Of a stretch of 64,000 nucleotides of DNA, positions 36,291 through 38,791 are shown piece by piece; position 1 is the first letter of the stretch, and each line of letters starts with the position of its first letter. The DNA is from Saliphagus infecundisoli (GTDB taxonomy: Archaea > Halobacteriota > Halobacteria > Halobacteriales > Natrialbaceae): assembly GCF_020177375.1 (NCBI RefSeq), contig NZ_JAIWHV010000002.1:248001-312000 (forward strand), given 5' to 3'. The translations under genes were made by a program, and so were the position numbers. The notes under the pieces are model-generated. The model was not told the DNA's origin. It ran no database searches and was given only the letters and a program-made list of their open reading frames with translations.

Positions 36291-36704
36291 TCAGCCCAGG
36301 CGGTACGGCCCCTGCTCGCCGTCCGTGATCTCGTCGTCCGCGTCCAGATCGTCGAGCAGGAGCACCTCTTCCTCGCCTTCCAGTCGGTCCTGGAGCTCGG
36401 TGACGTACTCGCGGTACTCCGCGACCTGTTCCCGGAGGTGTTCGGACTCGAGTTCGAGGCGTTCGTGTTCCCGGACGAAGCTCTTCGAGACCTCGACGGT
36501 CGGGGGGAACGAGGGCTCGTCTTCCGTCCGGCCGAGTTCGTCCTCGGGGACGACCGCGACCTCGCCGTCGTGGGCGACGAGCATGTCGACGTAGTCCCTG
36601 AACACCGACGACAGCGAGATGTCCCGCTCCTCGGCGATCTCCTGGAGCGCGACGAAGGCGTCCTCGTTGACCCGGAAGGAGACGGTCTTGTTCTTGTTGC
36701 CCAT
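36291..36704 (-). CDS. ribbon-helix-helix protein with coiled coil
   Basis: A 137-residue protein. The N-terminal 45 residues (MGNKNKTVSFRVNEDAFVAL, then DISLSSVFRDYVDML) form a ribbon-helix-helix DNA-binding domain. A long Glu-rich heptad region (FVREHERLELESEHLREQ and beyond) predicts a coiled coil, and the C-terminus is acidic. It is probably a dimeric transcription regulator or nucleoid-associated factor. A TATA-like CGTTAAGTGG lies about 30 bp upstream, predicting a leaderless mRNA. It is next to the RPA operon in the same direction. Confidence 0.8.
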   Translation of the reverse strand: MGNKNKTVSFRVNEDAFVALQEIAEERDISLSSVFRDYVDMLVAHDGEVAVVPEDELGRTEDEPSFPPTVEVSKSFVREHERLELESEHLREQVAEYREYVTELQDRLEGEEEVLLLDDLDADDEITDGEQGPYRLG

Positions 36705-36785
36705 TCGGGCCGTTCTTCCCCGCCAGTCCACTTAACGATTCGTCAGACGGCCGGCCGTGAGCGATCGCTGAAGCGGGCGGTCGGG

Positions 36786-37406
36786 TCAGTCCGCCGATCC
36801 CTCGACGCTCTCCAAGGCTTCGACGACCGCCCGGCGATAGTTCTCGACGGGGAGGTCGTAGCGCTCGTCGACCATCCGGGCGTACTCGTTGCCCGTCGCG
36901 TCGGGGGCGCCCTCGGGTGATTCCTCCTCGGCTTCCCACGCCTCGAACGCCTCGATCCGGTCCAAGGTGCGCTCTGCGGTCTCGACGACCCAGCGGTTCC
37001 GGGTTGCCTCGTCGACGACCGCGATCGACTCCGGCCGCAGAGAGACGTTGACGGTGCCGTCGTCGGTCTCGTAGGTTCGGGGTTTGCCGACGACCGAGAC
37101 GTACGCCGGGGTCTCTGCCTCCCGCAGGACGGAGGCGGCCTCGGGCTGGTACTGGCCGGCGTAGACGAAGAACGTGCCCGTGGGGTCGACGACCCGGCCG
37201 CGCCAGTACTCGCTGTCCTCGCCGACGTCCTCGGTTTCGGTGAGGGTGCCGACGACGAAGACGCGGTTGGCCCGCTCTCCGGTCGGGAGCAGCGCGTAGT
37301 TGGGCGCGCGCTCCTCGTCGCTCTCCTTGAACGTGTAGGTCGCGTCGTTGAACTCGCTGGCGAACGTCCGGCGTGCGACCTCTCGGGTGAGCTGTGATCC
37401 GGACAT
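36786..37406 (-). CDS. rpap: RPA-associated protein
   Basis: A 206-residue OB-fold protein of the archaeal RPA-associated family (COG3390). It starts MSGSQLTREVARRTFASEFN, a conserved N-terminal helix, followed by the OB region VFVVGTLTETEDV, YWRGRVVDPTGTFFVYAGQY and YVSVVGKPRTYE. Such proteins are co-transcribed with and bind their cognate RPA in haloarchaea. It begins immediately after the RPA stop codon (37406/37407), so translation is likely coupled. Confidence 0.92.
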   Translation of the reverse strand: MSGSQLTREVARRTFASEFNDATYTFKESDEERAPNYALLPTGERANRVFVVGTLTETEDVGEDSEYWRGRVVDPTGTFFVYAGQYQPEAASVLREAETPAYVSVVGKPRTYETDDGTVNVSLRPESIAVVDEATRNRWVVETAERTLDRIEAFEAWEAEEESPEGAPDATGNEYARMVDERYDLPVENYRRAVVEALESVEGSAD

Positions 37407-38336
37407 CTACATCGACCTCGCTCTGATCAGCAGGGCCTCGCCATCCACGGCCCCATCGAGCTCCTCGACGTCGTCTGCGAGCACGTACCGGCCAAAGGTG
37501 GGCCCCTCGATCCGGTAGTAGGTGCCGACGACCCGACCGCGGATCTCGTCTGCGACGACCGTCGTATCGAGGGCGTCCATCGCCATCTCCTTTGCCTCCT
37601 CGAGACTGATGCCCGTGAGGCCCTCGGTCGCCTCGGCGTCGAAGATGACCTCGTGGGCGTCGATGCCGTCGTCGACGACGCCCTTGATGCGGAGGTCGAA
37701 CTCGCCTTCGACCTCGCCGTGTTCGTTACACCGGCCGTTCTGGAGCACGCGCGTGCAGTCGTCGTGGGGACAGCGCTTGATCAGCCCGCTGCCCCGTTGC
37801 ATGTCGACGAGTGCCCCTTCGACGACGCTGGTGTCGTCGCCGACCTCCAGATCCCCCTCTACTTCCTCGATGCCCGTCGTCGAGTTGAGCTTGACCGAGT
37901 ACCGGCCCTCGTACTCGTCGGTGACGACGTTTCGAAGCTCGTAGACGCCGCCCTCCGAGAGCGAGGGAAGGTCGGATTTGGCCCACTTCGTGAACTTGAT
38001 CGTTCCCGTGGGATCGCCGAGCAGACCGACCTGGGCGACCGAGTCGCTTCTTGGCTCCCAGAGCTCGATCACCTTCGCCGTGAGGTCGATCCACTGTTCG
38101 GGCTCGTCGACGTCCTCGATCTCCGCGGCCTCGCTCCCGCCGCCGGCGATGTCCTCGCGCTCCAGGCCCGCCTCCTCCAGGTAGTGGTTGGTGACGCTGC
38201 GTCGGGCCTCCTCGACGGGCACCTTGTACTCGTCGACGAGGGTCCGCAGGCGTCCCTCGACGTCGTCTACTGCGACGTCGATGTGGTCTGAAAACTGCTC
38301 GTGTACGTCCTCCGCGTGTTGTCGTACGTCGCTCAT
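37407..38336 (-). CDS. rpa: replication protein A (single-stranded DNA-binding)
   Basis: A 309-residue single-stranded DNA-binding protein, most like haloarchaeal Rpa3-type. An N-terminal helical region (DVHEQFSDHIDVAVDDV) precedes two OB folds; the first contains VGLLGDPTGTIKFTKWAKSD, the second follows IKRCPHDDCTRVLQNGRCNEHG, a four-ligand zinc finger. It protects single-stranded DNA in replication and repair. A micro-ORF ends 4 nt before its ATG, and the operon promoter lies about 60 bp upstream. The RPA-associated gene follows directly. Confidence 0.95.
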   Translation of the reverse strand: MSDVRQHAEDVHEQFSDHIDVAVDDVEGRLRTLVDEYKVPVEEARRSVTNHYLEEAGLEREDIAGGGSEAAEIEDVDEPEQWIDLTAKVIELWEPRSDSVAQVGLLGDPTGTIKFTKWAKSDLPSLSEGGVYELRNVVTDEYEGRYSVKLNSTTGIEEVEGDLEVGDDTSVVEGALVDMQRGSGLIKRCPHDDCTRVLQNGRCNEHGEVEGEFDLRIKGVVDDGIDAHEVIFDAEATEGLTGISLEEAKEMAMDALDTTVVADEIRGRVVGTYYRIEGPTFGRYVLADDVEELDGAVDGEALLIRARSM

Positions 38337-38340
38337 TGTC

Positions 38341-38373
38341 TCACGCCTCCGCCTGTGTTTCGTTGGGAGGCAT
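38341..38373 (-). CDS. 10-codon micro-ORF upstream of rpa
   Basis: ATG 38373 opens a frame MPPNETQAEA that ends with TGA at 38341-38343, 4 nt before the rpa ATG. The TATA box centred near 38399 puts the expected transcription start at about 38372, so this ATG would be the first codon of a leaderless mRNA. It may be a translated leader that couples or tunes rpa translation. A chance ORF is possible; only the geometry supports it. Confidence 0.4.
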   Translation of the reverse strand: MPPNETQAEA

Positions 38374-38393
38374 GTCGGTCTTCGCTCCCGATC

Positions 38394-38403
38394 GTATTTA
38401 AAC
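38394..38403 (-). promoter_or_regulatory. TATA box of the rpa operon
   Basis: On the minus strand the sequence is GTTTAAATAC, a near-consensus haloarchaeal TATA element. It predicts transcription starting about 38370-38375, some 35 nt before rpa and at the micro-ORF ATG. Confidence 0.7.
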
Positions 38404-38473
38404 TGCCGCCACCGGAGCGAAAGTGGTCCTGCCGGCGACGGGCCTTTGGGTCTCGCCGCCGAACCGTCCTCCG

Positions 38474-38791
38474 ATGGCCGACCGCGACGAACTCGAGGGC
38501 TTCCTCCGCACTACCCTGCAGGACGCCGGCAGCCGCTTCGAACGGCTGCGCCGCTCGGCCGGACTCGCGGAAGCCCGAGAGCACTACGAGTCGGCGCGAA
38601 ACGCCGCCGGACTCCCCGAGGACGACGCCGGGCGCGCCCGGATCGTCTGCCGGCGCTACGCCGAGCGGCGGGCGACCCGGCTGGACGAGGAGTTCCGGCC
38701 GGCATGTTACGAGGCGGGCCACCCCGACTGCGAGGGCTGTCTCGAGGACGTCCGCGAGGGCCGCGTCGAGACCTGGTCTCGTAGCCAGTGA
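38474..38791 (+). CDS. conserved haloarchaeal protein with Cys motif
   Basis: A 105-residue acidic, mostly helical protein starting MADRDELEGFLRTTLQDAG. Its C-terminal part holds a metal-site-like pattern: Cys in RIVCRRYAERR and the cluster CYEAGHPDCEGCLEDVREG. I recall unassigned haloarchaeal proteins of this type (DUF7091-like). It is divergent from the RPA operon, sharing its short intergenic region. Confidence 0.72.
   Translation: MADRDELEGFLRTTLQDAGSRFERLRRSAGLAEAREHYESARNAAGLPEDDAGRARIVCRRYAERRATRLDEEFRPACYEAGHPDCEGCLEDVREGRVETWSRSQ

Follow-up and report, generated by a model that had tools for sequence, protein, structure and literature searches.

A conserved hairpin in the predicted 5' leader of haloarchaeal rpa3 mRNAs, recurring before CBASS and TGT-like operons, as a candidate RNA operator

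The stretch of Saliphagus infecundisoli DNA analysed here (the window; 64,000 nt) carries on its reverse strand a gene for replication factor A whose mRNA is predicted to begin only shortly before its start codon, raising the question of what this short leader does. A sequence-only reading had proposed that it is a leaderless micro-ORF with a geometry suited to coupled or regulated translation of rpa. The gene in question (rpa3 or rfa3; 309 aa; 37407..38336, minus strand, with its ATG at 38336-38334) codes for a protein of the haloarchaeal RPA3/Rfa3 type (NCBIfam NF005553, 484 bits against a cut-off of 353), and an orthologue is found in 390 of 391 sampled haloarchaeal genomes (protein match, E 1e-60 or better). 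The second operon gene in the open reading frame list (206 aa; 36786..37406, minus strand) returned no match in NCBIfam and Pfam searches, and by its position we take it to correspond to the RPA-associated protein. Another gene, third after rpa3 (36291-36731), looks ribbon-helix-helix-like, with weak NCBIfam matches only.

Examination of the region upstream of rpa3 reveals a TATA box (GTTTAAATAC; 38394..38403, minus strand), preceded by a promoter motif (CACTTTCGCTCCG; 38413..38425, minus strand) that matches CACTTTCRCYCCG exactly and is the sole exact match within the window. The centre of the TTTAAA lies 26.5 nt from the micro-ORF ATG, a spacing that fits the start of transcription predicted earlier at this codon (38373, minus strand); hence we consider a 5' end at about 38373 a good prediction from sequence. 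We compared 140 leaders, namely those of the window, 29 genomes of the same family, 80 named GTDB loci and 30 genomes of a group that we assign by inference to the Haloferacaceae. The corresponding spacing is 24.5-26.5 nt in all 140, part of the spread being excluded by design as the best TATA-like hexamer was taken within a 16-nt search range. The predicted +1 is a purine in 134 of them, and the first triplet is ATG in 99, ACG in 19, GTG in 13, TTG in 4, GCG in 3 and CTG in 2. An inverted repeat (TTCGCTCC ... GGGAGCGAA; 38381-38389 and 38414-38422, minus strand) surrounds the TATA box in the window and in many other Natrialbaceae, and none was seen outside this family among the leaders read.

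The micro-ORF itself is present as described: its ATG (38373-38371) opens a frame of ten codons (ATG CCT CCC AAC GAA ACA CAG GCG GAG GCG TGA, for MPPNETQAEA; 38341..38373, minus strand) ending in a stop at 38343-38341, four bases (GACA) before the rpa ATG. Ten codons followed by a gap of 4-5 nt recur in 43 of 79 Natrialbaceae leaders, a geometry that would suit coupled translation, but an ATG frame with a stop upstream of rpa is missing in 31 of 31 leaders from other Halobacteriales and in 28 of 30 from Haloferacaceae. A stop just upstream of rpa is seen in 44 of 79, 0 of 31 and 2 of 30 leaders of these three groups, respectively (25 of 41, 0 of 26 and 2 of 27 after removal of duplicates). Thus, the conservation of ATG, stop and peptide that the sequence-only reading suggested as a check does not hold: the ATG is kept in 99 of 140 leaders and lost in 41, and the stop is kept in 46, nearly all of them Natrialbaceae. 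Furthermore, one-base indels in what would be the middle of the frame disrupt it while leaving the flanking complementary arms intact (for example in L011 and L046). In the Natrialbaceae, this middle segment varies most at third codon positions (0.87 bits versus 0.44 and 0.60), whereas 19 leaders from outside this family that lack the ATG show no such preference; this mild bias is, as far as the alignments indicate, the sole sign of coding constraint, and the distinct codon variants comprise 16 non-synonymous versus 4 synonymous ones. Given the indels, the sparse stops and the 16:4 codon variants, the ATG and stop seem to arise incidentally from a purine at +1 followed by YG-YCUCC. Translational coupling through a leaderless micro-ORF is in our judgement very improbable, although weak translation of the peptide in Natrialbaceae is possible. 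What stands of the earlier proposal is that the rpa mRNA has, at its predicted 5' end and adjoining the rpa start, an element of regulatory appearance.

This element is a hairpin, on which the micro-ORF lies. In the predicted fold of the window RNA, the very 5' end forms a 9-bp stem in which CAUGCCUCC pairs with GGAGGCGUG across a 15-nt loop (-15.9 kcal/mol, z -2.7; 0 of 200 shuffles equally low), and the outer pairs of the stem involve the AUG itself, a further point against initiation there. The 5' arm (GCCUCC; 38366..38371, minus strand) is anti-Shine-Dalgarno-like, the loop (CAACGAAACACAGGC; 38351..38365, minus strand) has the consensus C-R-N-N-GAAA, and the 3' arm (GGAGGC; 38345..38350, minus strand) holds the Shine-Dalgarno of rpa, GGAGG (38350-38346), with 9 nt separating it from the start codon. 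A 5'-terminal hairpin of the form YCUCY…14-16 nt…RGAGR is kept in 140 of 140 leaders, with arms that are complementary throughout if G-U is allowed. The arm pairs are GCCTCC/GGAGGC in 102 leaders, GTCTCC/GGAGAC in 27 and GCCTCT/AGAGGC in 6, and the five remaining leaders have G-U forms (GTCTCC/GGAGGC in 3, GCCTCT/GGAGGC in 2). Base counts over the same leaders show the first loop base to be C in all 140 and the second A or G in 137, with GAA in 121 and GAAA in 116.

As the leader set includes duplicates (94 sequences are distinct over 60 nt), we aligned the 99 distinct hairpins as alignment A2. Here changes on both sides are counted at 4 stem pairs and, in a count of the core pairs, at 2 of 6; 91.1% of cells pair versus 86.9% after shuffling, and covariation is 0.237 versus 0.155 shuffled, both values being equalled in 0 of 500 shuffles; slid controls gave 0.061-0.127. 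RNAalifold, unprompted, returns a 7-bp stem from these leaders, the outermost pair of which is U-G in 56 of the 99 rows, U-A in 24 and C-G in 16. The first 60 nt of the 94 distinct leaders fold modestly more strongly than shuffles (mean z -1.45), and their Shine-Dalgarno segment has a mean pairing probability of 0.992. The Rfam covariance models found no match up to E 5 in 38200-38600. Compensatory stem changes appear in A2 as well as in the mixed and accessory alignments described below, and we see in these alignments strong evidence that the hairpin is under selection.

A covariance model built from rpa3 leaders only (R1) detects one match in the window's own genome (46 bits). Of 292 haloarchaeal genomes, 284 have a match with an E-value no higher than 0.01, mostly one in each; in the cases compared by eye, a subset of the 284, the best match lies directly before rpa3. 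Among the eight genomes without a match, reading of the rpa3 leaders by eye found the hairpin in five (G227, G261, G286, G302 and G337, with arms GTCTCT/AGAGAC in G261), a weak hairpin in G222 and none in G125 and G129, which belong to one genus. The hairpin is not wholly specific to rpa3: additional R1 matches precede rpa3 paralogues (L209, L211, L212, L213, L216, L217), and the structure is also found at the TGT-like and CBASS loci discussed below. Several copies of an rpa3 paralogue with the hairpin occur in G301 (contigs C36, C70, C102, C110 and C116), some of these contigs showing a tandem duplication around an N that is possibly an assembly artefact.

A looser model (R2) matched 79 of 80 genomes chosen at nearly one per genus, usually with rpa3 as its best match, and twenty further matches were read individually. 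A match in G120 (L317) was dropped as it overlaps a conserved coding motif, IPNENHQGF, which recurs in L327 and L328 where the gene is operon-internal. Those at L298, L300, L302, L303, L304, L306, L307, L308, L309, L311 and L312 fall within long open frames, and we attribute them to chance; L301 and L305 are likewise chance-like, and L267 has a second match, which is internal to an ORF. A possible hairpin lies at L310/L318 (G165). In G249, a candidate match (L316, E 0.01) precedes a prim-pol-like gene of an integrase-bearing element. Within L316, the segment 5876-5908 has the same loop on an unrelated stem, CGCGCC/GGCGCG, at a predicted +1, and the hairpin is followed by a small ORF and a DUF5906/D5-type replication gene. 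Two hairpin patterns matched 3 and 8 viral contigs, with 0 of the 11 sites being leader-like with a downstream gene; a scan of viral contigs for the TGT-like protein found no relative, and a phage collection yielded no relative of RPA3.

In G080, G029 and G335, R1 also matches before a different gene, coding for a protein of about 290 aa that has a PADLOC TGT match (E 3e-21 to 5e-30) and belongs to no Pfam family. TGT-like proteins are accessory to some CBASS types, and a TGT-like gene lies beside an annotated CBASS cyclase in L327, L328 and L334. The family of the 290-aa protein occurs in 24 of 391 genomes (E 1e-15). In 14 of 18 neighbourhoods the gene is followed by a member of one common protein cluster, named DsbA family protein in plasmid records, and four of five members tested have a DsbA/Thioredoxin_5 domain above the Pfam cut-off. 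The TGT-like gene and the adjacent DsbA-like gene (L264-L281) make up a two-gene accessory cassette that is a candidate defence system, the DsbA-like protein having a long acidic Gly/Ala-rich N-terminus. R2 places the hairpin directly upstream of the gene, on its strand, at 16 of the 24 TGT-like loci, a count that is partly circular because R2 was trained on 15 of them; it misses eight (L249, a partial match, L254 and L257-L262). R1, untrained on accessory loci, recovers 12 of the 24, two of these 12 with E-values no better than 0.02 and 0.24, and in addition the plasmid locus L338. When R2 was applied to 19 plasmid loci, the hairpin was detected at L338, L320 and L321 and weakly at L336; its matches at L327 and L328 (coding) and L332 (other strand) were discounted. 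The TGT-like operons (L240-L257) have in common an upstream motif of another kind, near-palindromic and about TTTAGGCGGCCCTAGAC, which is probably a transcription-factor site.

The accessory leaders add to the range of stems, with GTTCCC/GGGAAC in four (L250, L252, L255, L256), GACTCC/GGAGTC in L251 and GCCTCT/AGAGGC in L263. In 43 mixed sequences both-side changes occur at 5 of 7 pairs, 96.7% of cells pair and covariation exceeds that of all 500 shuffles. The 19 accessory leaders alone give both-side changes at 4 of 7 pairs, 96.2% of cells pairing and a covariation of 0.391 versus 0.234 shuffled (0 of 500). These leaders bear on whether the structure might act intrinsically, in the absence of a trans factor, through thermometer-like masking of the Shine-Dalgarno or protection of the mRNA 5' end. 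The near-complete pairing of the Shine-Dalgarno segment would fit such a role, and a Halobacterium study (PMC5924565) reports rfa3 operon mRNA as abundant as that of eef2. On the other hand, the loop is conserved while being unneeded for masking or stability, the window's Shine-Dalgarno is still 0.983 paired at 70 C in the model, and the GTTCCC/GGGAAC stems of the four TGT-like leaders hold no Shine-Dalgarno. Plain masking or a thermometer as the general rule is ruled out by these GGGAAC stems, together with the modelled lack of melting at 70 C, and we consider an intrinsic structure as a whole quite unlikely. Since some stems lack a Shine-Dalgarno, we favour a bound factor over plain masking.

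The second type of accessory locus is a CBASS operon, in which R2 detects the hairpin before a CD-NTase–Cap15 pair in four haloarchaea (R1 alone does not detect the CBASS hairpins). The matches in G086, G362 and G364 lie about 40-100 nt before the CD-NTase gene, which is followed by a Cap15-type effector in G362 and G364, the G086 contig ending inside the CD-NTase. These assignments derive from the PADLOC cyclase profile PDLC00788 (E 4e-99) and the Cap15 family PF18153 (E 2e-22), and L271 likewise combines a CD-NTase with an effector gene as a CBASS locus. Haloglomus halophilum (L320) and Salinigranum rubrum (L321) have the same hairpin and operon on plasmids, that of S. rubrum being identical with the one in G364. 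Because the hairpin-bearing CBASS loci are orthologous, they count as one independent case.

The CBASS operons are further connected to rpa3 by the upstream promoter motif. Of 338 loci retrieved, 80 contain a stricter form, CACTTTCACYCYG, once in each, and only in rpa3 or CBASS promoters (the latter being L296, L297, L313, L314, L320, L321 and L324, a list in which several entries duplicate one another). If one mismatch is permitted, CACTTTCRCYCYG is found up to 200 nt upstream of 7 of 13 CD-NTase/Cap15 starts, of which L313, L314, L315 and L320 are orthologous and L323, L324 and L271 separate, as against 0.32% of 20,000 random 200-nt windows, which were sampled from the same accessory loci without removal of the motif sites. 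It is found at 0 of 6 starts of TGT-containing CBASS or related systems and is absent from 16 TGT-like promoters, where the best site has 3 mismatches. Ten further one-mismatch sites lie elsewhere in 1.6 Mb, most of them in coding sequence. The other RPA gene of the window's genome (L006) has the motif with one mismatch, and a one-mismatch rpa3-type motif also lies before a metallophosphoesterase gene near a TGT-like cassette (L264:10045). Five loci (L313, L314, L320, L271, L324) have paired CBASS cassettes with two CD-NTase sets, convergent or divergent, and the rpa3-type promoter motif occurs in only one of each pair. Together the motif and hairpin counts indicate that CBASS-Cap15 operons share the promoter motif with rpa3, one group of them also sharing the hairpin, whereas the TGT-like operons share the hairpin only.

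The main competing explanation is that the inverted repeat past +1 acts as DNA, as a dyad for a dimeric transcription factor, which would serve as repressor or activator of rpa3 and of the accessory operons. Symmetric changes in the arms are equally expected of a DNA dyad, roughly two turns of the helix separate the arm centres when the loop has its commonest length of 15, and a site near +1 suits an archaeal repressor. The separate promoter motif in common with CBASS also points this way, and given this shared motif some transcription factor probably exists. However, loop length varies by inspection from 14 to 19 nt across the rpa3 and accessory hairpins, which would rotate one half-site relative to the other by roughly half a turn of the helix, the predominance of U-G at the outermost pair fits RNA and not a symmetric DNA site, and the loop is both conserved and asymmetric. 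A DNA operator is, on balance, unlikely. In light of the transcribed position, the outer U-G pair, the tolerant loop length and the asymmetric conserved loop, we think it likely, on these sequence features, that the hairpin works as RNA.

We propose, with somewhat better than even confidence, that the rpa3 5' leader is an RNA operator to which a factor acting in trans binds, perhaps RPA3, and that immunity operons have borrowed it. Under this proposal, the first 30-odd nucleotides of the rpa3 mRNA would form a hairpin in which a stem of 6 bp or more closes a loop, about 15 nt long, with a conserved CRNN-GAAA core; a free regulator would bind loop and stem and stabilise the hairpin, which, so held, would cover or abut the ribosome entry site and limit translation of the rpa3 operon, and loss of the regulator would let it open. 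The likeliest regulator would be the RPA3 complex, titrated off by single-stranded DNA as in the autogenous control of T4 gp32, and CBASS and TGT-like/DsbA-like operons with the same hairpin would answer to the same signal. We infer each of four elements here: the RNA as the active form, the binding of a protein, its identity as RPA3 and whether regulation is negative or positive. What makes RPA3 the natural candidate is that almost all genomes have the hairpin and almost no gene other than rpa3 does, together with the T4 gp32 precedent, in which, according to the T4/RB69 study, the single-stranded DNA-binding protein represses its own mRNA via a 5' structure (PMC535899). The fullest version, with RPA3 as autogenous repressor, its operator captured by the CBASS and TGT-like/DsbA-like operons (by CBASS along with an rpa3-type promoter), and all of them released upon titration by single-stranded DNA, is tentative and, taken whole, rather doubtful.

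If it were correct, viral or damaged single-stranded DNA would titrate RPA3 and thereby release RPA3 synthesis and immunity genes together, constituting a single-stranded DNA sensor for archaeal innate immunity made from a host single-stranded DNA-binding protein's control circuit. Thus, DNA maintenance and immunity may share a switch, and, if the immunity operons are indeed under such hairpin control, the switching of archaeal abortive defence becomes directly testable. In a Haloferax volcanii dRNA-seq study, translational control via structured leaders was judged atypical of haloarchaea (PMC4983044). The rpa3 hairpin, at a gene of DNA maintenance, is one small structure of this kind that almost all of the class has preserved. 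It may also be relevant to radiation-resistant mutants of Halobacterium in which the rfa3 operon is over-expressed (PMC5924565).

The literature titles and abstract openings covered, a set to which key older RPA papers do not belong, describe no conserved rpa3 leader hairpin and no sharing of it with CBASS. Among known systems, the closest likeness is to the gene 32 operator of T4/RB69 (PMC535899), which is also a folded 5'-terminal RNA in the mRNA of a single-stranded DNA-binding protein, adjoining the ribosome entry site. That operator comprises a pseudoknot with an unstructured A/U-rich tract and belongs to phages, whereas the rpa3 element is a simple hairpin with a conserved loop on archaeal chromosomes, its binding by its own product being hypothetical. 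With bacterial translational riboswitches and thermometers it has in common a Shine-Dalgarno paired in a short stem near the start codon, but it differs from these in its conserved loop, in relatives whose stems hold no Shine-Dalgarno and in having no visible ligand domain. Finally, the operons bearing the hairpin or motif resemble other CBASS systems with a CD-NTase and a Cap15 or 2TM effector in that their genes are ordinary CBASS genes; what sets them apart from usual CBASS is a control region resembling that of a housekeeping gene, rpa3.
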